64,000 nucleotides of DNA. Origin: Yoonia maricola. GTDB lineage: Bacteria; Pseudomonadota; Alphaproteobacteria; Rhodobacterales; Rhodobacteraceae. Below, one piece after another: positions 38,747 to 49,300 of this stretch. The position numbers and the translations under genes are program-made. The notes below the pieces were generated by a model. That model did not search any database, was not told the origin of the DNA, and saw nothing but the letters and a program-made list of their open reading frames with translations. Numbering within the stretch: the first letter of the stretch is position 1; every line of letters begins with the position of its first letter. The stretch lies in assembly GCF_002797915.1 (NCBI RefSeq), contig NZ_PGTY01000001.1, positions 186,001-250,000 of the forward strand, read 5' to 3'.

Positions 38747-40039
38747 CTAGTCGACAGGTAGCCCGCTGGGGACCGTGTCGGGGCGACCCATGGGACGGGT
38801 GTGTGCGGTCTCACCGGTCAACGCGTTGAGGAACGCGACCAGATCATCGATTTCAGCGTCCGTCAGCGCGATGGGCCGCAGGTCGATCGCGGCGGTTTGG
38901 CGGGCCATTTCAGTGGCATCCTGTCGGATCGCAAAATCCACCGCAGCAAGCCATGGCACATGTGGCAGATCTGCTTGTTCAACGGTCCATGCGCTGCGCT
39001 GCGCCATTGGGTCCGCATGATGGCGGATCATGGCGGCTAGGGTGGGGTAGGCCCCATTGTGGCCGTATGGCGCGGTCAGCGCCACATTGCGCAGTGAGGG
39101 TGTGCGAAACTTATAGGCGTCCTCTGCCAGATTTGTTTCGGCCATACGCCCGACATCGCGCGAGATTTGGTCCCATTGGCGTGTGCGTCCGGGGCCGAAT
39201 GCGGGCAAGCCAAGGGCGTGAAAGCTTTGGTCCGTGAACAGATCACCTGCGTGGCAGGATGCACAGCGACTATTGAAGAAAAGGTCTCGGCCCCGTTCGG
39301 CGTCCACCGGCAAGGGTGTGCCAGTCAGCCATTTGTCGTAAGGGCTGTCATATGATTGCCATTCGCTTATGATAAATGCACCCAGCGCATTACCGATTTC
39401 AACGATGGTGACGTCGCTGGGTTCTTCAATATGGTCAAAAGCTTGGACGAACATCGACCCATAGGCGGGGATCGTGCGCACCCGTTTAGCAATGATCGGC
39501 CATGCCACATCAATCCGGTCATGGGTGGCCCCTGCGATTTCGTTTTCGCGCGGGTTTCCGGCCATCTCAAATTGAGCGATCATCGGGAAAAGGGCTTGCG
39601 CCGCAACAAGGTTATCAAGGCCTTGGGGCAGCCATTCTTCGGCGGGTGAATCGAAGCCGTTCCCGTAGATATCAGAGCGCGTCAGCCGCCCGTCATGAAA
39701 CAGGGTCTCAATCTCATTATGCCCTAAATTCCAAAGGCTTGGCGCATTGCGCGGGATGCGTTTGCGGATCGCATCTGCACCGGTTCCTGCCGTGCGTTCA
39801 GGGCCGACGCCAACGCCACCTTCGCCGATGCCCAGTGATAGCCCATCGCCGCCTGCATGATCGTGATGATGGCATGTGCCGCAGGAGATATTCTTGTTTC
39901 CTGACAGGATCTTATCGTAGAACAACAGCTGCCCGATGCGGGCTTGATCCGGGTCTGTGGGGATGTAATCATCCGGGCTGATCCCCTGCGCTGTTGCAAG
40001 ACCCGCGCTGAAAAGAACCGCAAGGAGTGCCGTATGCAT
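38747..40039 (-). CDS. Di-haem cytochrome c peroxidase / MauG-family protein (copy 2)
   Basis: A 430-residue exported di-haem cytochrome closely related in plan to the protein at 26311-27624. It shares FYDKILSGNKNISCGTCHHH, GDGLSLGIGEGGVGVGP, a second haem motif CASCHAGDLFTDQSFHALGL and TPSLRNVALTAPYGHNGAYP, and the same PSGLPVD tail. Signal peptide: LLAVLFSAGLATAQ. The best start is the ATG at 40037-40039, which overlaps the divergent Sel1 gene by six bases; an ATG three codons upstream (40048) is possible. Both starts have poor Shine-Dalgarno sequences. Confidence 0.86.
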   Translation of the reverse strand: MHTALLAVLFSAGLATAQGISPDDYIPTDPDQARIGQLLFYDKILSGNKNISCGTCHHHDHAGGDGLSLGIGEGGVGVGPERTAGTGADAIRKRIPRNAPSLWNLGHNEIETLFHDGRLTRSDIYGNGFDSPAEEWLPQGLDNLVAAQALFPMIAQFEMAGNPRENEIAGATHDRIDVAWPIIAKRVRTIPAYGSMFVQAFDHIEEPSDVTIVEIGNALGAFIISEWQSYDSPYDKWLTGTPLPVDAERGRDLFFNSRCASCHAGDLFTDQSFHALGLPAFGPGRTRQWDQISRDVGRMAETNLAEDAYKFRTPSLRNVALTAPYGHNGAYPTLAAMIRHHADPMAQRSAWTVEQADLPHVPWLAAVDFAIRQDATEMARQTAAIDLRPIALTDAEIDDLVAFLNALTGETAHTRPMGRPDTVPSGLPVD

Positions 40040-40534
40040 CGCGTACATACAGCGTACAGAACCTGTACATACATCTGTGCGGTTCTGCTGCTTCTGGCGA
40101 CGCCAGCCCGTGCCGATATGGAGGTCGCACGTGATCTGATGGAGGCGGGCGACTACGCCGAGGCGCGCGCGCTTTTTGAGGTTTACGCGCGTTCCGGCAA
40201 TGCCGAAGCGGAAGAGCTGATTGGCGTGATGTACGCGCTTGGCCTTGGGGTTGACCGCGACGATGAGCGGGCCTTCGACTGGTATTTGCGGGCGTCGTTG
40301 AAAGGGCATGCAGGGGCGCAATCGGGGCTAGGGTGGTACTATGAAGTGGGACGCGGGATACCGGCCCCTGATATGGTCAGAGCCTACCTTTGGTATGCTT
40401 TATCGGCAATAGGTGGCGACCCGGATGCGCTGGATTCGCTTGAGTTGATTACGCCAAGGTTGACGGCAGAAGAACGGGCGCGGGCCGAGGTGTTGGTCGA
40501 TGATTATAGGGGGTGGATGTATCCGTTTCGATGA
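40034..40534 (+). CDS. Exported Sel1-repeat protein
   Basis: A 166-residue protein with signal peptide (MHRVHTAYRTCTYICAVLLLLATPARA) and two to three Sel1-like repeats of about 36 residues (AEAEELIGVMYALGLGVDRD, GAQSGLGWYYEVGRGIPAPD, RAYLWYALSAIGGDPDAL). These helical pairs mediate protein contacts. The ATG at 40034 follows AAGGAG at 40022-40027; the longer upstream frame lacks such a signal. It is divergent from and overlaps the start of the di-haem gene. Confidence 0.82.
   Translation: MHRVHTAYRTCTYICAVLLLLATPARADMEVARDLMEAGDYAEARALFEVYARSGNAEAEELIGVMYALGLGVDRDDERAFDWYLRASLKGHAGAQSGLGWYYEVGRGIPAPDMVRAYLWYALSAIGGDPDALDSLELITPRLTAEERARAEVLVDDYRGWMYPFR
40043..40073. promoter_or_regulatory. 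Palindrome and direct repeats at a divergent start overlap
   Basis: GTACAGAACCTGTAC (40054-40068) is a perfect inverted repeat with a 3-base spacer, flanked by two GTACATACA copies at 40043-40051 and 40065-40073 that are 22 bases apart, two helical turns. It lies within the Sel1 signal-peptide codons and just upstream of the di-haem gene on the other strand. The layout resembles an operator; no regulator is identified. Confidence 0.4.
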
Positions 40535-40620: not shown

Positions 40621-41331
40621 TCAAGGATTGCGCGGAGTGTCACTGTGTCGTGGAAAATCATTCAAGAAAGCCATGATTTCTTCATTTCTATGGCAAATAT
40701 GCGGTTGCAACGCGGTGACAACTCGTACGTCCGTATCACCAAAGAAGCCCATCTCCTGTTCGATGATTTTTTTCTCTTCGCCGTCCGCGAACATTTGAGC
40801 CGCTCGTGCAACACTCACACTACCTTCGAAGGCAGCGAAACCTTCCAGCGCGTACGCTGCTTTTGTCAAATCTTCATCAACAATGTTCAGGCAATCCACT
40901 GCCATTTTCGCGACATTGTCAGAGAACCATTCTTCCAGTTTCAGAAGCGTCGGAAGGTCGTCCTCTCGAAGCCGCTCACCTTCAGATAACCAGGCGTGAT
41001 GATGATCACTGATGTTTGTGGAGAGGCCTCGGTACTTACCTCGTGGGCTGGCTCCAAACTTTGCACATGCGCAGTAAATCACATGCGAAAAGAACAAATA
41101 AGCGTCTTCGAAAGATTCACCACTTTTAGGCGCGGCTCCCAATAACCAAGGTAAAGCAGCGAAGGTCGACGGATATATGTCATCTTGATGATGAAGCTCC
41201 TCCCAAAAGAGTTCTGCGGCAACGTCTGGGTCCCAGCGGGTTACCAGCTTTGCAATCAAGTCGTTTACGGACCGATTGCCGTAAGGTCCGTACAGTCGTG
41301 TCCACACATCAACATTTAGAGGCAGTTTCAT
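40621..41331 (-). CDS. Uncharacterised protein, orphan
   Basis: I do not recognise this 236-residue cytosolic protein. It starts MKLPLNVDVWTRLYGPYGNR after a short gap, and has WEELHHQDDIYPSTFAALPW near residues 40-60 and a C-terminal acidic, helix-rich part. The composition (HH/DD pairs, short WL turns) is somewhat like immunity or SUKH-type proteins but no motif proves that. It is more AT-rich than the neighbours and stands alone between the Sel1 gene and the TRAP operon, which hints at transfer. Confidence 0.65.
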   Translation of the reverse strand: MKLPLNVDVWTRLYGPYGNRSVNDLIAKLVTRWDPDVAAELFWEELHHQDDIYPSTFAALPWLLGAAPKSGESFEDAYLFFSHVIYCACAKFGASPRGKYRGLSTNISDHHHAWLSEGERLREDDLPTLLKLEEWFSDNVAKMAVDCLNIVDEDLTKAAYALEGFAAFEGSVSVARAAQMFADGEEKKIIEQEMGFFGDTDVRVVTALQPHICHRNEEIMAFLNDFPRHSDTPRNP

Positions 41332-41416
41332 AAGGGCTCCAATTGGTAGAGCGGACGTTCGCGCAGAATGCAGCATCCGTCAATGAGGGCTCGAAGTAGA
41401 CTTCCAACCTGTCAGC

Positions 41417-41464: not shown

Positions 41465-42520
41465 CTAGTTCAAGTCGCTCGCATAAGCCTCGGCCATTTC
41501 GGCTTCAACGTCGGCCACGGCTGCTTGCAATGCATCCAGCATGTCGCCGCCGCCGTCCACGTTTTCGCGGAACCAGTCGTTCACCGGTGCTGCTGCTGCT
41601 GCGAAAGCGGCTTTCTCTTCTGGGCTTGGCACATAGATGTCGCCGCCGCCTGCAACGAAGGCCTCATAGGCTTCGATTGACTTGCGCTTGGGTGACGCGA
41701 ATGTCGCCTGTTGCAAGGCAGAGAAACCGTCAACAACAACGCGGCGCAGGTCTTCTGGCATGGCGAGGAAGTTGTCATTGTTCATCCACCACATCGCACC
41801 CATGTAGGAGTGACCATCAAGGGTCAGGTACTGCAGGCCCGCATCTGGGAATTTCATGCCCATGATGTCGGTGATGCCGTTTGCTGTGCCCTCAACAACG
41901 CCGGTTTGCAGTGATGTAAACAGCTCTGGCCACGGGATCGGTGTCGCGGATGCGCCCATGGCTTCAACCAGTTGCACGGGCAGATCAGCCACAACAGTGC
42001 GCAGTTTCAGGCCAGCCATATCGTCTGGGCCTGTCACGCGGCGTTGGGTGTTGGCAAAGTTGCGCCAGCCGCCGGTGTTGCCGATGGTCATCAGGCGGAT
42101 TGTGTTGCCGCTGTCTTCAAGCGCCTTGTCACGCATGGTGCGGACGAAATCACCCGATAGCACTTCTTCGGCCACACGGTCAGATGACATCAGGTAGGGC
42201 AGGTCAAGCACCTGCACATATGGGAAGATGCCTGCGGCACCGCCGGATGTGGAGATGTAGACGTCGATGGAGCCCTCGGAGACACCTTCGAGGCATTCTG
42301 CACCCGTTGCGCAAAGCTGTGTGCCGATGAACAGCTCAACCGCGATGCGTCCGTTGGAGGCTGCCTCTACGTAGTTTTTGAACACGACCAGACCGTCATA
42401 GTCTTCGTCGTTCTCGTTTGAGTTGGCTGTGGCGCGGATTGTGAAATCCTGTGCCCAGGCGGCCAGCGGTGTCGCCAGCAGTGCAGCGGTCGCCGCGATT
42501 TTGGTGAACTGTTTCAGCAT
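41465..42520 (-). CDS. dctP: TRAP transporter substrate-binding protein, DctP family
   Basis: A 351-residue exported receptor: signal peptide LKQFTKIAATAALLATPLAAWA, then FTIRATANSNENDEDYDGLV. The DctP arginine is in DMAGLKLRTVVADLP, and PIPWPELFTSLQTGVVEGTA is the family core. The ligand is a carboxylate or, by context, possibly a sulfonated sugar; see the monooxygenase genes upstream. It is the last gene of the operon, 23 bases after DctM. Confidence 0.9.
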   Translation of the reverse strand: MLKQFTKIAATAALLATPLAAWAQDFTIRATANSNENDEDYDGLVVFKNYVEAASNGRIAVELFIGTQLCATGAECLEGVSEGSIDVYISTSGGAAGIFPYVQVLDLPYLMSSDRVAEEVLSGDFVRTMRDKALEDSGNTIRLMTIGNTGGWRNFANTQRRVTGPDDMAGLKLRTVVADLPVQLVEAMGASATPIPWPELFTSLQTGVVEGTANGITDIMGMKFPDAGLQYLTLDGHSYMGAMWWMNNDNFLAMPEDLRRVVVDGFSALQQATFASPKRKSIEAYEAFVAGGGDIYVPSPEEKAAFAAAAAPVNDWFRENVDGGGDMLDALQAAVADVEAEMAEAYASDLN

Positions 42521-42543
42521 TATCTTCTCCCTTATTGATGCTG

Positions 42544-44115
42544 TTAGTTGATGCCCGGTGCCGGGCTGATGCAAGCGCTAAAGCCGACCTCTGGACCGCA
42601 GCCCAGGAAGCCAGCGAGGTAAGGCACTGTCATGGAAATGGCGGGGATATAGGTGATCAGGAAGATCACGAGGATTTCCACCGCGAGGAATGGCAGGATG
42701 GCTTTGGCGATGGTTTCGACCTTTTCGCCCGAAACCGTACTGGCCACGAATAACACAAGCCCCATGGGGGGCGTTGCCAACCCCACTGTCAGATTTACGC
42801 TCATGATGATCGCGAAATGCACAGGGTGCACGCCAAGGTCGACGAAGATTGGGCCAAGGATTGGCCCTAGGATGATGATCGCAGGGCCTGCATCAAGGAA
42901 CATGCCCACGATGAACAGCAGGATGTTGATGAGGAATAGCAGGATCAGCGGGTTTTCTGACAGCGACAGGATATAGTCGCTAAGGATTTGAGGTGCGTAG
43001 CTGAGGCTGACCACGGTCTTGAACGCCACGGCTGCACCGACCAGTAGCAACACCGCGGAGGTAGCAAGCGCGGATTTGGTCAGCACCTCGCCAAGGTCGC
43101 GCAGTTTCATGGAGCGCAGCACGAAGAAGCTGACAAGCAGGGCGTAAGCGACGGCAATGGCCGAGGCCTCGGTCGGGGTGAAGACGCCGACGAGGATACC
43201 GCCCAGGATGATGATCGGCGTTTGCAGGGGTGCGATGGCTTTCTTACAGATCATGCGGAAGTCATGACTGACACGCCCACGGTAGCCCATCAGCAGGAAA
43301 TGTGCCGCGACTAGCAAAGCGAGGAACACGATCCAGATATTGAGGTTGTGAACCTTGTCACCGGCCTCATTGATGGTGGCGAGGCCGACGCGGGCGGATA
43401 GGCCACTGTAGATCGCCAGCAGTAGGCCGCCGACATTGATGCGCAGCAACACGAAGCTGACCCAGTATTCCACTTGCGTGATGTCCTGATTCTTGGTGAC
43501 GATCCGTTCGGCCTTGGGCAGGTCATAGCGGTCAGCCATCAGGCGCACCATGACCATCAGACCAGCACCCACCATGATGCCGGGCACGATGCCGGCCAGA
43601 AACAAGGACGCTACGCTTTCGCCCATCACATAGGCGTAGATGATCATGATGCCCGAGGGCGGGATGATCGGGCCGATGACAGAGGAGGCGGCGGTGATGG
43701 CGGCTGCGAATTTGCGGGTGTAGCCGTTCTTTTCCATCGCGGGGATCAGGGTGGACCCCAGCGCGGAGGTATCCGCGACAGCGGAGCCGGACAGCCCCGC
43801 AAAGAGCATTGAGGACAGGATATTTACATGTGCCAGACCACCGCGCAGGTGGCCCATGAAGGCTTGGGAAAATTCAACGAGGCGCAGGGTGATACCACCG
43901 CGGTTCATAATCTCGCCTGCCAGCATGAAGAAGGGCAGCGCCATCAGCGGGAAGCTGTCCATGCCGTTGTAAAGGTTGCGGTAGAGGCCTGCGACGACAT
44001 TGCGGTTGTCGCCTTCGAGCATGATCAGCGCAAAGGGCGAGGCCAGCAGTGCAAAGACCACCGGCAGGCCGATCATGATGAGGATCAGGAAGAGAGGCAG
44101 GAACCATAAAAGCAT
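42544..44115 (-). CDS. dctM: TRAP transporter large permease, DctM family
   Basis: A 523-residue permease, about 95 longer than the usual 425-430. The extra segment, about residues 200-305 (YWVSFVLLRINVGGLLLAIY onwards), adds two or three hydrophobic helices between the two halves. Conserved blocks include PLMALPFFMLAGEIMNRGG, GLSGSAVADTSALGSTLIPAM and GPIIPPSGIMIIYAYVMGES. Start overlaps the DctQ stop. It uses the sodium gradient to move the ligand bound by DctP. Confidence 0.92.
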   Translation of the reverse strand: MLLWFLPLFLILIMIGLPVVFALLASPFALIMLEGDNRNVVAGLYRNLYNGMDSFPLMALPFFMLAGEIMNRGGITLRLVEFSQAFMGHLRGGLAHVNILSSMLFAGLSGSAVADTSALGSTLIPAMEKNGYTRKFAAAITAASSVIGPIIPPSGIMIIYAYVMGESVASLFLAGIVPGIMVGAGLMVMVRLMADRYDLPKAERIVTKNQDITQVEYWVSFVLLRINVGGLLLAIYSGLSARVGLATINEAGDKVHNLNIWIVFLALLVAAHFLLMGYRGRVSHDFRMICKKAIAPLQTPIIILGGILVGVFTPTEASAIAVAYALLVSFFVLRSMKLRDLGEVLTKSALATSAVLLLVGAAVAFKTVVSLSYAPQILSDYILSLSENPLILLFLINILLFIVGMFLDAGPAIIILGPILGPIFVDLGVHPVHFAIIMSVNLTVGLATPPMGLVLFVASTVSGEKVETIAKAILPFLAVEILVIFLITYIPAISMTVPYLAGFLGCGPEVGFSACISPAPGIN

Positions 44116-44711
44116 CAGTCGGCCCCCTGAAAATCATCGGCGCTGAGGGGGTTCAGCTCATCCCCGCGGCCCATCAGTTTGATGATTTGGCGGATGATCA
44201 GCTCAATATTCACAAGGATCAGCAGGTTCACCCCGACCCAAAGCGAGGCATATTGGAAATTGTTCTGAAACTTGTTGCCGCATTTGCCGTACTCAAACCC
44301 GAAGGGCCATTTCAACGAGGATGAGCAGCCGCGGCCCGAAAGTGTATCAACGTGGTTATTGAGCCCGCGATCCCAGGCCACGACCAAAACCCAAAGGGCG
44401 ATGCCCAGCAGGATCAGCGTCAGGATGCCAGAGATCATACGGGGCAGGGCGCGTTCGAGCATATCAATGGACACGAAACCGCCCATGCGGAACGCCAGCG
44501 GCGCCATGAGACCAGTCATCCAGAGCATCCCGAACCGTGCACCTTCTTCGGTCCAGTTCGGCGCGTCGCTCAGAATATATCGGAAGAAAACCTGGCCCAG
44601 GATCAGCGTCACCATGATGGCGAGCGCGATGACCGCGATGATCTTGCCGATGGCAAGCACCACGGTGTTGAACCGTTCAAGCGGCCATAAAAGGCCAAAC
44701 AGGACCGACAT
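44115..44711 (-). CDS. dctQ: TRAP transporter small permease, DctQ family
   Basis: A 198-residue membrane protein with four transmembrane segments (VVLAIGKIIAVIALAIMVTL, ILTLILLGIALWVLVVAWD and others) and the DctQ motif EEGARFGMLWMTGLMAPLAFR. It is somewhat long for the family because of an inserted loop near residues 115-145 containing a pair of cysteines. It lies 110 bases after the flavin reductase gene and overlaps DctM by one base. Confidence 0.88.
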   Translation of the reverse strand: MSVLFGLLWPLERFNTVVLAIGKIIAVIALAIMVTLILGQVFFRYILSDAPNWTEEGARFGMLWMTGLMAPLAFRMGGFVSIDMLERALPRMISGILTLILLGIALWVLVVAWDRGLNNHVDTLSGRGCSSSLKWPFGFEYGKCGNKFQNNFQYASLWVGVNLLILVNIELIIRQIIKLMGRGDELNPLSADDFQGAD

Positions 44712-44821
44712 CGGCTCCTCCCCTGTTTATGTTGCGGGACATTGCCCACTGTTTGTTATTTTGGGGGTTTTTGCCCCCGCCGCTGTGCGGCTTCCCCAGA
44801 GTTTTCCGGCCAAGATGAAGA

Positions 44822-45325
44822 TCAGGTGGCGTTGAATTCCCCGTATCTGCCGCCTTGGAACACCAGTGGATCACCGCCCTGGTGGTGTGCTTTGGTCACG
44901 CGGCCCACGATGATGACGTGGTCGCCTGCATCATGGGTGGCTTCGAGATTGCATTCAAATGTGGCCAGTGCCCCTTCGATGATCGGCATGCCACAATGAG
45001 ACAGATGTGTTGGCACATCACTGATAGCGGTTTTGGATTTGATGATGGCGGCACAGATATCGCGCTGATCGGCACCCAGCACATGGATGGCAAAGCGTCG
45101 TGAGCCTGCGAAATGTTCAAACCTTTTGGACGACTTTGCAGGTGACCAGAGCACCAAAGGCGGGTCAAGCGACACGCTGGCAAAACTGTTGGCCACTATG
45201 GCGACCGGGCCTTCGGGGCTATCGGTCGTGATGACGGTGACGCCAGTGACGAAGCTGCCCAATGCACCGCGAAAGCTGTCGGAATCCGTGCCGGGATCGA
45301 ATGTTGCGATGGTGCCTGCGTCCAT
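44822..45325 (-). CDS. NAD(P)H:flavin reductase, SmoA-like
   Basis: A 167-residue flavin reductase-like domain protein: ALGSFVTGVTVITTDSPEGP, ANSFASVSLDPPLVLWSPAK and RFAIHVLGADQRDICAAI. It should supply reduced FMN to the monooxygenase encoded two genes upstream. It overlaps the stop of the aldo-keto reductase as TAATG, so the three enzymes are co-translated. Compared with the sulfoquinovose monooxygenase (SMO) clusters it corresponds to SmoA, though any two-component flavin monooxygenase could have this partner. Confidence 0.88.
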   Translation of the reverse strand: MDAGTIATFDPGTDSDSFRGALGSFVTGVTVITTDSPEGPVAIVANSFASVSLDPPLVLWSPAKSSKRFEHFAGSRRFAIHVLGADQRDICAAIIKSKTAISDVPTHLSHCGMPIIEGALATFECNLEATHDAGDHVIIVGRVTKAHHQGGDPLVFQGGRYGEFNAT

Positions 45326-46215
45326 TATGGGACCTCCGTGCCAAGTGCGGCTGTATACAGTTCGAACCAGGTCTGGCGGTCCATACTTACCTTAAAAGCA
45401 TCCGATAGGGTATTGATACGGTTTAAATTATTTGTTCCCATAACCGGCATGATATTTGCCGGATGGGCCAACAACCAAGCAACCGCAACGGCGGCATTGT
45501 CAACGCCATGGTCTGCGGCCACCTTAGCCAGCGCATCTTGCGCAGCACCGGCGCTCGTCATCAAGCTGCCGCCGCCCAAAGGCGACCATGCCATGATGGG
45601 CACGCCCCGTTCTTGCAGATAGGCGACGTCACCGTTGGTGAACCCTTGATGCGCTGTCAGCGACAGTTCGATCTGATTGGTGATCAGCGGTGTCTTCATT
45701 GCAGATTGCAGCAGTGTCCAGTCATGCAGCTTGAAGTTAGACACGCCAACAGAGCGAACCTTGCCAGAGGCCACGACTTCGTCGAGGGTCGCGCCGGTTT
45801 CGTGGTGATCCATCATCGGATCGGGGCGGTGGATCAGTAGCGTGTCGATCTTGTCGATATCCATCAGGCGCAAGGAATGATCAACGGATGCAAGGATATG
45901 CGCGCGGCTGGTGTCGTAATATTTGACGCGGGCATCGGCATAGCGCCCCATGGGGGCCACGATATCGCATTTGGTCACGATCTCGATCTGATCTTTGAGG
46001 GCAGGCGCGGCCTTCAATGCGTTGCCCAACACTTCTTCTGCTTCGTAGCCGCCATAGATATCGGCCTGATCCATGGTTGTGATGCCTTGCGTGAGGCAGG
46101 CTTCGATCTTGGCTTGCACATGGCCGACAGAGGTATCCTCGTCATCGCCCAGCCGCCACATCCCATAGACGATGCGGCTGAAGGAAAGGTCGTTGGTGAT
46201 ATTGATCCGGTTCAT
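45325..46215 (-). CDS. Aldo-keto reductase, SmoB-like
   Basis: A 296-residue NADPH-dependent reductase of the YdhF-like group. The fold motifs are IVYGMWRLGDDEDTSVGHVQ, ITTMDQADIYGGYEAEEVLG (catalytic Asp and Tyr), IEIVTKCDI with the catalytic lysine, and LLIHRPDPMMDHHETG with the conserved histidine. In SMO clusters this family member (SmoB) reduces 6-oxo-glucose to glucose after desulfonation. Position between an FMN monooxygenase and a flavin reductase matches that gene set. It is co-translated with both by one-base overlaps. Confidence 0.88.
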   Translation of the reverse strand: MNRINITNDLSFSRIVYGMWRLGDDEDTSVGHVQAKIEACLTQGITTMDQADIYGGYEAEEVLGNALKAAPALKDQIEIVTKCDIVAPMGRYADARVKYYDTSRAHILASVDHSLRLMDIDKIDTLLIHRPDPMMDHHETGATLDEVVASGKVRSVGVSNFKLHDWTLLQSAMKTPLITNQIELSLTAHQGFTNGDVAYLQERGVPIMAWSPLGGGSLMTSAGAAQDALAKVAADHGVDNAAVAVAWLLAHPANIMPVMGTNNLNRINTLSDAFKVSMDRQTWFELYTAALGTEVP

Positions 46216-47372
46216 TAACGGCGGGGTCCTGTGCCAAGGGGTGTTGCGGGTGTTTCCGCTGGAACGCGGCCATAGTCATGCGGCAGCGAGCAGGTTTTCA
46301 GATGCGGCATGACGCGTGCGCCAAAATGTTCGGCCTCGTCGATATGCGGGTAGCCTGAGAAGATGAAAGCACGGATGCCCATCTTTTGATAGGCCTCGAT
46401 TTTGCTCATCACCTGATCGGTAGAGCCGACCAATGCAGCACCACAGCCGGAACGCGCGCGCCCGACGCCGGTCCAGAGGCCGGGTTCGACATAACCGAAT
46501 TTGTCCGCCAACTCGCGCGCCTTGGCTTGGTGGGCGACACCAAGCGAGATGCTGTCATGGGCGCGGTCGCGGATCAGCTTGCCGTATTCATCGTCGAGTT
46601 TTGAGGCGATGTAGTCGGCGTATTCCTTTGCCTCCTGTTCGCTGTCGCGCACGATCATATGCACACGCAAACCGTAATCGAGGGTGCGATTATGTGCTGC
46701 GGCCCGTTCGTTCACATCCTTCATGCGCTGTGCGAGCTGTGCCATCGGCTCTGGCCACATCAGATAGACGTCACATTGTGCACCGCAGAGTTCGAGCGCC
46801 GCCGGCGAATAGCCACCAAAGTAGAGAAGGGGACCGCCGTTTTGCTGGTACGGGCGTGCGGGATCTGTGGTCAGTTTTGATATCTGGTAGATGTCACCAT
46901 CATAGCTGACCTCATCCTGCGTCCAGCATTTGCGCAGAATTTCGACAACTTCGTGAGAGCGCTTATAGCGGAAGGCGCTTTCAGCGACTTCACCGGGGAA
47001 ATCAGAGCTGATCACGTTCAGCGTCAGACGGCCCTTGAGCATGTGATCAAGTGTCGCGATGGTGCGAGCCAGCATGATGGGTTGCACTTCGCCACAGCGG
47101 ATGGCGGCGAGGAAATTGATTTTTTCGGTTAGAGGCGCCATGCCTGCGACAAATGACAGTGTGTCTTGGCCGACCTGATAGGACGAGGGGGCAAGGATGT
47201 TGCGAAACCCCTGTTTTTCAGCAGTTAAAGCGATGTCGCGGCAGTGTTCCCATGACGACCGCAGATCGCCATCGGGTACGCCCAGAAATTGATAGTCATC
47301 AGAGCAGAGCGCGGAAAACCAGGATACCTCAGCCCGCTCAAGATCGGCGCTGGTGACCGGAACGATGGTCAT
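46215..47372 (-). CDS. FMN-dependent monooxygenase (LLM class), SmoC/SsuD-like
   Basis: A 385-residue luciferase-like monooxygenase. It begins in the SsuD style (EVSWFSALCSDDYQFLGVPD), has INFLAAIRCGEVQPIMLART, RLTLNVISSDFPGEVAESAF, and ends IRAFIFSGYPHIDEAEHFG. Such enzymes cleave C-S bonds of sulfonates with FMNH2 and oxygen, releasing sulfite. With the downstream reductase pair and sugar-type oxidoreductases, sulfoquinovose or a similar sulfonate sugar is the best guess for its substrate, but alkanesulfonates are not excluded. It heads the operon. Confidence 0.85.
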   Translation of the reverse strand: MTIVPVTSADLERAEVSWFSALCSDDYQFLGVPDGDLRSSWEHCRDIALTAEKQGFRNILAPSSYQVGQDTLSFVAGMAPLTEKINFLAAIRCGEVQPIMLARTIATLDHMLKGRLTLNVISSDFPGEVAESAFRYKRSHEVVEILRKCWTQDEVSYDGDIYQISKLTTDPARPYQQNGGPLLYFGGYSPAALELCGAQCDVYLMWPEPMAQLAQRMKDVNERAAAHNRTLDYGLRVHMIVRDSEQEAKEYADYIASKLDDEYGKLIRDRAHDSISLGVAHQAKARELADKFGYVEPGLWTGVGRARSGCGAALVGSTDQVMSKIEAYQKMGIRAFIFSGYPHIDEAEHFGARVMPHLKTCSLPHDYGRVPAETPATPLGTGPRR

Positions 47373-47476
47373 TGATTCTCCTCCCCAGAAGTCAGCCTTT
47401 CCACTTGCCTAGCATGCAAATTTATATGTAACAATAGTGTATCAATTTTCATGTGCTGGCGTTGGGAGGTGCCACC
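47373..47476. promoter_or_regulatory. Divergent control region of the monooxygenase cluster
   Basis: A 104-base spacer between the monooxygenase operon and the GntR gene, with an AT-rich core at about 47415-47455 where both promoters must lie. GCATG and CATGTGC elements bracket the core in roughly inverted order, but the match is too loose to call an operator. GGGAGGT sits before the GntR start. Confidence 0.45.
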
Positions 47477-48196
47477 ATGGCGAAAACCTCTGCTCAGTCA
47501 TCGGCGTTGCCAAAATTCATTCAGCTTAGCGAAATGTTGATCCGCGAGATTGCTGCAGGCCATCTGGCAGATGGCGCACGGCTGCCGCCAGAACGGGATA
47601 TGGCGGATGATTTGGGGGTCGCGGTTGGCACTTTGCGCAAGGCTTTGGCGGATGTGGAAGCAAAGGGCTTGCTGGACCGCGTGCAGGGATCGGGCAACTA
47701 TGTACGGCACAGGCCTGCAGTGGATTCGGTCTATGCTTTTTTTCGCTTGGAGTTGCTGAAAGGGGGCGGTTTGCCGACCGCAGAGGTCTTATCGGTGGAT
47801 CGCTTGGCCAAGCCTGACGGCTTTGCGCGCTTGGGTGGTGACGCAGAAGGGCATCGGATCAGGCGGGTACGATCTTTGGACGGCATTGTGATCGCGCTAG
47901 AGGAAATCTGGTTGGACGGCGCGTCCCGCGACATTGTTGCACCTCAGGATTTGTCGGATTCGCTTTACCACTTTTACCGGCATGAATTGGGTATCGTGAT
48001 CGCCTCGGTCGAGGATCAGATCGGGGTTGACGTAATGCCCGACTGGACACCGGATGCATTTCACCTCACAGCGGGCCAAACCGCAGGCTACATCGCGCGG
48101 GTCAGCTGGACCGCCGCCAAGGAACCGGCCGAATTTTCGCGCACTTGGTATGACGCCAAACGCGCCAACTACATCTCTCGTATGGGCAAAGGTTAG
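47477..48196 (+). CDS. GntR-family regulator, HutC/UTRA subfamily
   Basis: A 239-residue regulator with an N-terminal winged helix-turn-helix (DGARLPPERDMADDLGVAVG, TLRKALADVEAKGLLDRVQG) and a UTRA effector domain (VLSVDRLAKPDGFARLGGD to RVSWTAAKEPAEFSRTWYD). UTRA domains bind small molecules, commonly sugars or their phosphates. It lies divergent to the monooxygenase operon and seven bases before the Gfo/Idh/MocA gene, so it probably controls both. Start at 47477 behind GGGAGG; eight upstream codons in frame are not used. Confidence 0.9.
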   Translation: MAKTSAQSSALPKFIQLSEMLIREIAAGHLADGARLPPERDMADDLGVAVGTLRKALADVEAKGLLDRVQGSGNYVRHRPAVDSVYAFFRLELLKGGGLPTAEVLSVDRLAKPDGFARLGGDAEGHRIRRVRSLDGIVIALEEIWLDGASRDIVAPQDLSDSLYHFYRHELGIVIASVEDQIGVDVMPDWTPDAFHLTAGQTAGYIARVSWTAAKEPAEFSRTWYDAKRANYISRMGKG

Positions 48197-48202
48197 AACG
48201 AC

Positions 48203-49300
48203 GTGGATACTGTAAACTACGGCCTGATTGGCTGCGGCATGATGGGCCGCGAACATATTCAGAATATCAACCTTTTGCCGCAGGGGCGGGTGTCCGTTGT
48301 CTATGATCCAGTGGCCGAACTGGCAGAAGCGGCGGCGACTTTGGCTGAAGATGCGCATGTGGCCGGATCGTTGGAGGCGTTGTTGGCGTTTGACCAGTTG
48401 GACGCGGTGGTCATTGTCAGCCCCAATTACCTGCATGTCGCCCAGTTGCAGCAGATCGTGGCGACCCGCCCGCTGCCGATCCTGTGTGAAAAACCACTCT
48501 ACACCGATCCGGCTGATGCGGCGGTGCTGGATAAGCTATTTGACGGATACGCGCATCCGGTGTGGGTCGCGATGGAGTATCGCTATATGCCGCCTGTTGC
48601 CGCGTTGATTGCGCAGGCCGAGCAGGCGACCGGAGGCATCAAGATGCTGACGATCCGCGAACATCGCTTTCCGTTTCTGCCCAAGATTGGCGATTGGAAC
48701 CGCTTTAACGCCAAGACGGGTGGCACATTGGTTGAAAAATGCTGCCATTTCTTTGATCTGATGCGGCTGATCCTTGGCGATGAACCGGTGCGCGTCATGG
48801 CCAGTGCAGGCCAGTCGCTGAACCACATCGATGAGCGCTATGACGGGCAGGTGCCTGATATCTGGGACAATGGCTATGTCATTCTGGATTTTGCGAAAGG
48901 TGCGCGCGCGATGCTGGAACTGTGCATGTTCGCGGAAGGCTCAAAATACCAGGAAGAAATCAGCGCCGTCGGCCCAAAGGGCAAGATTGAGGCCTTGGTG
49001 CCGGGACCGGGCCGGTTCTGGCCGAAATTGCTGGGTGATCCGCCGGTGCCGCAGATGATCATCAGTCCGCGTGCGCCGAAGGGGCCTTATGTATCAGAGA
49101 TCCCGGTTGATCCTGCGCTTTTGGATGCGGGTGATCATAATGGGTCGACCTTCTATCAGCATCAGCGGTTCAATGCTGTGGTCCGCGGGCAGGGTGAGGT
49201 TGAAGTGACGTTGACCGATGGGGCGCGAGCGATTGCAATCGGGTTGGCTGCGCAGGAAAGTGCGCGAACCGGGCAGGCCGTGGGGCTTTCGCTGGCCTAG
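48203..49300 (+). CDS. Gfo/Idh/MocA-family oxidoreductase, candidate NAD-dependent sulfoquinovosidase
   Basis: A 365-residue NAD(P)-binding protein: Rossmann motif YGLIGCGMMGREHIQ near residues 6-20, the family signature ILCEKPLYTDPAD near 94-106, and a C-terminal alpha/beta domain with the probable catalytic stretch GGTLVEKCCHFFDLMRLIL. One branch of this family (GH188) cleaves sulfoquinovosyl glycosides by an NAD+-assisted mechanism. Co-location with an SMO-like gene set makes that role attractive, but a sugar dehydrogenase is just as possible on sequence alone. The GTG start lies seven bases after the regulator stop. The end overlaps the CheW gene by four bases. Confidence 0.82.
   Translation: MDTVNYGLIGCGMMGREHIQNINLLPQGRVSVVYDPVAELAEAAATLAEDAHVAGSLEALLAFDQLDAVVIVSPNYLHVAQLQQIVATRPLPILCEKPLYTDPADAAVLDKLFDGYAHPVWVAMEYRYMPPVAALIAQAEQATGGIKMLTIREHRFPFLPKIGDWNRFNAKTGGTLVEKCCHFFDLMRLILGDEPVRVMASAGQSLNHIDERYDGQVPDIWDNGYVILDFAKGARAMLELCMFAEGSKYQEEISAVGPKGKIEALVPGPGRFWPKLLGDPPVPQMIISPRAPKGPYVSEIPVDPALLDAGDHNGSTFYQHQRFNAVVRGQGEVEVTLTDGARAIAIGLAAQESARTGQAVGLSLA

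Follow-up and report, generated by a model that had tools for sequence, protein, structure and literature searches.

A sulfo-SMO gene cluster of Yoonia maricola with a predicted GH188 sulfoquinovosidase and a TRAP transporter proposed to import sulfoquinovose or its glyceryl glycoside

Sulfoquinovose, a sugar that contains sulfur, occurs in the membranes of plants and algae. One set of genes for its breakdown, the sulfoquinovose monooxygenase (sulfo-SMO) cluster of Agrobacterium, comprises those named smoA to smoI. Here we describe a cluster of this type, with a tripartite ATP-independent periplasmic (TRAP) transporter as its putative importer, at positions 41465–49300 of a 64,000-nucleotide stretch of Yoonia maricola DNA (assembly GCF_002797915.1). 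This stretch, hereafter the window, covers 186001–250000 of contig 1 in a host genome of 3.80 Mb and 7 contigs. Within the sulfur cycle sulfoquinovose makes up a large flux, and its marine consumers include bacteria of the Roseobacter type (Kaur et al. 2023, PMC10755693; PMC13372026). In these papers, the sulfo-SMO pathway is recognised by SmoC and SmoB within a window of 10 open reading frames (ORFs) (PMC13372026), and GH188 is described as near-universal in sulfo-SMO clusters of the Roseobacter clade, with Dinoroseobacter shibae named in the legend of the cluster figure (PMC10755693). The enzyme set itself is already known as the sulfo-SMO/GH188 cluster of the Roseobacter clade (PMC10755693; prevalence in PMC13372026).

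We read the locus as a sulfo-SMO cluster with a GH188 glycosidase and a TRAP transporter that would import sulfoquinovose or its glycosides, and from sequence comparison we give this reading a probability of about 0.86. The gene smoC (46215–47372, minus strand; Bac_luciferase, PF00296) encodes a predicted FMN-dependent sulfoquinovose monooxygenase of 385 aa. In phmmer searches of the PDB it matched 7olf (1.4e-219, 732 bits) and 7oh2 (5.6e-212, 707 bits), which we take to be SmoC structures and whose PDB titles name a methanesulfonate sulfonatase and an alkanesulfonate monooxygenase, while SsuD-type entries reached 189–210 bits (7jv3 at 6.9e-61, SsuD 1m41/1nqk at 1.8e-54). Against the SsuD equivalog TIGR03565 it scored 246.4 bits, under half of the cut-off of 518.2, and it is the sole PF00296 match in the host genome (E up to 0.001). 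The gene smoB (45325–46215, minus strand) encodes an aldo/keto reductase predicted to convert 6-dehydroglucose to glucose. It matched 7bby at 5.3e-126 and 7bbz at 6.2e-126 (423 bits), presumably both SmoB structures, with the next entry at 3.9e-61 (210 bits). The SmoA-type flavin reductase gene (44822–45325, minus strand; Flavin_Reduct, PF01613) encodes a protein whose closest PDB entry is 4xhy (3.9e-41). smoC and smoB are adjacent and so lie inside the 10-ORF window, and the flavin reductase gene expected of a sulfo-SMO cluster is present, overlapping smoB by one base.

A tree of 26 rows grouped the SmoC of the window with Roseobacter sp. CCS2 and two Yoonia loci, away from SsuD, and set the Pantoea SsuD and a Deinococcus relative apart with a support of 100/100. 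The SmoC set of 22 rows (97/96) includes a long Spirosoma branch, which leaves the edge of the set unsure. Thus, neither the scores nor the tree group the monooxygenase with SsuD, and by these comparisons the cluster is of the sulfo-SMO type, as the preliminary description of this DNA had proposed. A cluster that degrades another 6-sulfosugar, e.g. sulfofucose, or a range of alkanesulfonates would have in its favor that substrate range is not readable from identity alone and that SmoC lies within a wider SsuD-like family; we regard this as very unlikely, as SmoC, SmoB and the GH188 protein closely match solved enzymes of the sulfoquinovose pathway and the SsuD cut-off is clearly missed. Even less credible is a sulfur-scavenging, ssu-like system working under sulfate limitation: SmoC is a relative of SsuD and is expected to release sulfite, but the cluster combines a sugar reductase with a glycosidase and its own GntR/UTRA regulator, which points to carbon use, and here too the failed SsuD equivalog speaks against it.

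The glycosidase is encoded by the Gfo/Idh/MocA gene (48203–49300, plus strand; GFO_IDH_MocA family). Its product matched 8zn9 at 8.7e-157 and the GH188 enzymes ArSqgA (8qc3) and FlSqgA (8qc2) at 2.5e-112 and 2.6e-112, whereas the next PDB entry reached only 2.9e-18. PMC10755693 lists Lys107, Tyr136, Glu189, His193 and His321 of ArSqgA as residues with NAD+ and sulfoquinovose, and Arg166, Leu170 (backbone) and Lys172 as sulfonate-binding. In the window's protein these correspond to K97, Y126, E178, H182 and H312, and to R155, L159 and K161 (chain numbering of 8qc3 in the alignment is the paper's plus 13), and none of the eight varies among the 14 aligned proteins. From this match we assign the gene as a GH188 NAD+-dependent sulfoquinovosidase (SqgA). 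The preliminary description was right that no GH31 sulfoquinovosidase lies nearby (none was found in the whole host genome), but the cluster does not lack a sulfoquinovosidase: the Gfo/Idh/MocA gene is predicted to encode it. Inspection by eye reveals no clear signal peptide at the N-terminus, so uptake of the intact glycoside into the cell is probable.

To place the cluster among its relatives, we counted a genome as SmoC-positive at a match with E of at most 1e-100, which held for 165 of the 394 genomes from the family Rhodobacteraceae. Loci were fetched from 149 of these; the remaining 16 are the host genome and 15 without a listed position. Classes were assigned by identity thresholds and distance, under rules of this analysis, with "other" denoting neither this TRAP nor the queried ATP-binding cassette (ABC) types in range. 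The 149 family loci comprised 95 of the TRAP type, 16 of the ABC type, 29 with neither and nine on contigs too short to tell. The best 80 genome-contig loci gave 45 (one also with an ABC gene in range), 18, 12 and five, respectively, and nine plasmid loci examined out of ten fetched (SmoC above 70% identity) gave eight TRAP and one ABC. Pooled, these form an uneven sample of 228 distinct loci (140 TRAP, 35 ABC, 40 other, 13 short contig). TRAP-type loci were also seen in Rhizobium, Pannonibacter and Martelella. The replacement of ABC by TRAP, as first described, is supported, although it is the commonest arrangement and usual form among the family loci fetched rather than a rare variant. TRAP-type and ABC-type loci are intermixed in the SmoC tree, in which 10 of 23 inner branches are weak; this mixture suggests an exchange of the importer among smo loci. 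GH188 was found near SmoC in 211 of the 228 loci, GH31 in eight, both in none and neither in nine; GH188 was present in 92 of the 95 TRAP-type family loci. One locus, L100 of Cognatishimia activa, carries smo genes with no GH188, GH31, TRAP or ABC genes of the sought types in range. Cognatishimia is listed as an active sulfoquinovose user in PMC13372026.

The transporter consists of the small permease DctQ (44115–44711; PF04290), the large permease DctM (42544–44115; PF06808) and the solute-binding protein DctP (41465–42520; PF03480), all on the minus strand. DctP shares 64–95% identity with the DctPs of 20 other smo loci (blastp), whereas the top significant hit to any of the host genome's 13 other DctPs is 29% identical (tblastn on DNA). 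In the DctP tree, the ORFs used for L277, L278 and L285 are not DctP, the L277 row being the window's DctM. With an orthologue defined by E of at most 1e-120, DctP was found in 142 of the 394 genomes; SmoC accompanied it in 110 and was lacking in 32 (odds ratio 12.3, p 1.9e-27, shared ancestry ignored). None of the 16 genomes of the ABC type had it. Of the 29 genomes in which neither importer adjoins SmoC, 27 lacked it and two carried it on a different contig; it was detected in four of the nine genomes with short SmoC contigs. Among the 32 SmoC-less genomes with DctP, GH188 occurred in 28, within 10 kb of DctP in 25. In one such cluster (L317, G001:C6:196500-202400) the same TRAP lies with a MauG-like gene, a kinase, an aldolase, an SftI-like protein and a GH188 that keeps the same checked residues. 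The PfkB kinase is best matched by sulfofructose kinase (7ag6, 3.7e-59), and the LacD/DeoC-type aldolase matches 8tnf at 2.2e-91 and sulfofructosephosphate aldolases at 4e-17 to 9e-17. Because the TRAP is common to sulfolytic and sulfoglycolytic clusters, both with GH188, sulfoquinovose or its glyceryl glycoside is its most likely cargo, imported for two pathways, and its position beside GH188 in genomes lacking SmoC is the strongest support for this assignment. A more distant DctP (44% identity) is found in Photobacterium sp. DA100 (L319, 2095-9936), where the TRAP lies beside a class II aldolase, an AGE-family isomerase, a TauE-type exporter and an aldose epimerase; this is possibly another sulfosugar cluster.

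The binding pocket can be compared with that of the isethionate binder IseP (8t9t), called the first sulfonate-specific TRAP binding protein in PMC11668362. There, Arg156, Arg177 and Asn217 hold the sulfonate together with Ser95, Asn98 and Tyr153, and Asp77 (once written Asn77) and His244 contact the isethionate hydroxyl. In our alignment the Arg/Arg/Asn set falls on R153, R174 and N214 of DctP, and Ser95 on T91, whereas Asp77, Asn98, Tyr153 and His244 fall on G73, G94, G150 and A242. All eight DctP residues are invariant in 28 smo-linked DctPs. At the low identity of this alignment, the small side chains would leave room for a ligand larger than isethionate. The rival most worth weighing keeps the sulfo-SMO enzymes and lets the TRAP carry a sugar acid or another organosulfonate, with sulfoquinovose entering by a different importer. 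The solved relatives listed for DctP mostly carry generic names, the sulfonate binder 8t9t comes no higher than third, the Arg/Asn residues that anchor the ligand are those used for carboxylates, and the 40 loci of the class "other" imply that other importers exist. Still, we consider this alternative improbable, since the TRAP genes lie behind the smo operator, downstream of the enzymes on the same strand, are missing from all 16 genomes of the ABC type and recur beside GH188 where SmoC is absent.

Some observations weigh against import of sulfoquinovose or its glycoside by the TRAP. DctP keeps the Arg-Arg-Asn set typical of carboxylate holding; the set is also present in IseP, which binds a sulfonate, and so does not discriminate between ligands. 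In seven of the 32 SmoC-less genomes GH188 is either on another contig (three) or without a match (four), and genome counts throughout ignore shared ancestry. The sulfoglycolytic reading draws on L317 plus DctP and GH188 coordinates in 24 more genomes. The isomerase candidate of L317 has sulfoquinovose isomerase SftI as its sole NCBIfam match, at 279 bits against a cut-off of 700, and no match in the PDB, and the smo operator was not found in the 5.9 kb of this cluster with up to 2 mismatches. No PF03601 exporter, a possible route of sulfite disposal, was found in the host genome; some TRAP-type smo clusters (L003, L004, L008, L010) have in their vicinity genes annotated as "putative sulfate exporter family transporter", which may be candidate sulfite exporters. 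Finally, an AlphaFold model of DctP built with 19 smo-linked sequences proved too poor for a fold search, at a mean pLDDT (predicted local distance difference test) of 53.5.

The operator upstream of smoC, ATTGATACACTATTGTT (47430–47446, minus strand), is a tandem ATTG(A/T)T repeat with an 11-base period. Across loci, ATTGATRCANNATTGNT was found within 300 bases before SmoC, with up to 1 mismatch, in 216 of the 228 distinct loci (TRAP 133/140, ABC 32/35, other 38/40, short contig 13/13). Conservation in 215 upstream regions runs on from the repeat into TTGATN, 17 bases and TANGCA preceded by TG, columns that would represent a -35 box and an extended -10 box with the operator over the -35 box. 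In the window the predicted promoter (47406–47434, minus strand) has TTGTTA at 47434–47429, a 17-base spacer ending in TGC and TAGGCA at 47411–47406. The host genome contains one exact operator, the smo site, and six more at one mismatch (reversed control, none). All eight GH31 loci have a second operator before the ABC/GH31 genes. In 238 loci, 14 sites with up to 1 mismatch lay off the SmoC start, the nearest gene being an ABC ATPase in eight, GntR in three, an ABC binding protein in two, DctM in one and the MauG-like gene in none. We also searched 22 of the 29 genomes in which SmoC has no adjacent importer of the sought types with a longer exact pattern, which yielded 19 sites in 18 genomes. 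Two were not at SmoC: one precedes a GntR-GH188 pair on another contig (L304, in G271), the other lies ∼100 bases before GH188 (L315, in G112), and the SmoC loci of both genomes lack GH188. Thus, an operator derived from SmoC located a detached glycosidase twice; no detached importer was found by this search. The divergent GntR/UTRA protein (47477–48196, plus strand; PF00392, PF07702) is the putative regulator of the cluster and would act via this operator.

Taken together, these data are consistent with the following scheme, in which the enzyme steps follow work on relatives as given in PMC9594981 and PMC10755693. DctP would bind sulfoquinovosyl glycerol, or free sulfoquinovose, in the periplasm, and DctQM, as an ion-driven importer, would bring it inside. 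A cytoplasmic GH188 using NAD+ as catalytic cofactor would split the glycoside into sulfoquinovose and glycerol. SmoC, supplied with reduced flavin by the SmoA-type reductase, would use O2 to cleave the C–S bond to sulfite and 6-dehydroglucose, which SmoB would reduce to glucose. The GntR/UTRA regulator would sit on the tandem ATTGAT operator over the -35 box, with release by the sugar or a derivative being probable. The sequence comparisons themselves show the gene families, the conserved residues, the conserved operator and the linkage of the TRAP to two kinds of sulfoquinovose cluster; from them we infer the TRAP substrate, the binding of GntR, its effector and the sign of control, and the disposal of sulfite.

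Beyond the DctP end of the importer genes lie a MauG-like di-haem gene (38747–40060, minus strand; PF03150; start uncertain, the ORF running from 40321) and an adjoining Sel1/TPR-like gene (39944–40534 by ORF limits, plus strand), whose relatives stand beside MauG in matching loci and whose true start is probably later than 39944. Within the 8–10 kb that the loci reach, the MauG-like gene was present in 65/140 TRAP, 0/35 ABC, 4/40 other and 0/13 short loci, and the Sel1/TPR-like gene in 54 of the 95 TRAP-type family loci. The MauG-like gene occurs in 114 of the 394 genomes, 106 of which also have DctP (odds ratio 90, shared ancestry ignored); among its carriers this holds for 27 of 30 SmoC-less and 79 of 84 SmoC-positive genomes. 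Across genomes it thus tracks the TRAP importer rather than SmoC and the desulfonation route, which speaks against a part in the SMO route. A broader and so far tentative idea, which we hold to be rather less than evenly probable, is that this TRAP is the founding branch of sulfosugar TRAPs, travelling with the MauG-like and Sel1/TPR genes and serving both the oxygen-dependent sulfolytic SMO and the sulfoglycolytic kinase/aldolase routes; the MauG-like enzyme would then act on the periplasmic uptake step or protect it.

The gene layout of the preliminary description was borne out by ORFs and Pfam matches, both for the enzyme genes followed by DctQ, DctM and DctP on one strand and for the divergent GntR and Gfo/Idh/MocA genes. 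Single bases are shared at 46215 (monooxygenase/aldo-keto reductase), 45325 (aldo-keto reductase/flavin reductase) and 44115 (DctQ/DctM); 110 bases separate the flavin reductase gene from DctQ and 23 bases DctM from DctP. The DctP start is probably better placed at ATG 42520 than at the listed TTG 42574, and that of GntR at ATG 47477, preceded by GGGAGG, than at the listed GTG 47453. Of the 80 genome-contig loci, 44 are of the TRAP type with no ABC gene in range; in all 44 the neighbor pairs from SmoC to DctP keep their order and strand, and GntR and GH188 are divergent in all 43 that carry both, which argues that the gene order is not due to chance. DctM has 523 aa compared with 428–491 aa in annotated relatives of plasmid loci, and its Pfam match is split in two stretches, so it may hold an inserted segment with extra membrane helices. 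Between the MauG-like gene and DctP, a 251-aa protein (40621–41376) is matched by no Pfam or NCBIfam model, and tblastn at 1e-8 found no relative among 92 loci.

Among the literature matches listed, we found no published description of a sulfoquinovose TRAP importer, of its sharing by two pathways, of the operator or of the MauG link; Liu et al. 2023, Sharma et al. 2022 and the supplement of Kaur et al. fall outside this scope. Word searches did not find "TRAP" in PMC13372026 and PMC12890257, or "sulfoquinovose" in PMC11668362. Naming the importer provides a gene marker for uptake, beyond those for breakdown, and if the assignment is true, a sulfonated hexose joins carboxylates and isethionate among the substrates of TRAP transporters. 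The operator serves as a regulon finder, having picked two GH188 genes away from SmoC.

Compared with named systems, the cluster resembles that of Agrobacterium leguminum (L095) in its SmoC, SmoB and flavin reductase (80%, 66% and 56% identical) and in a divergent GntR with the same operator. It differs in the importer and glycosidase: the ABC importer and GH31 of the Agrobacterium-type smo operon are absent from the window's cluster, which has TRAP and GH188 instead. The GH188 enzymes SqgA of Arthrobacter and Flavobacterium (8qc3, 8qc2) are of the same family and share all eight checked residues, whereas the Arthrobacter gene studied in PMC10755693 sits in a sulfo-EMP (Embden-Meyerhof-Parnas) cluster and that of the window in a sulfo-SMO cluster. 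IseP, a TRAP binder of isethionate, has the anchoring Arg/Arg/Asn in common with DctP and differs in the other pocket side chains. One genome of our set (G035) is D. shibae DFL12 or very near to it (1000 bases, 100% to plasmid pDSHI01). D. shibae reportedly grows on sulfoquinovose, a finding ascribed to Liu et al. in 2023. The locus of D. shibae DFL12 (L256) carries SmoC, SmoB, flavin reductase, DctQ, DctM, DctP, GntR, GH188, MauG-like and TPR genes in an order matching that of the window, with SmoC 74% and DctP 76% identical.

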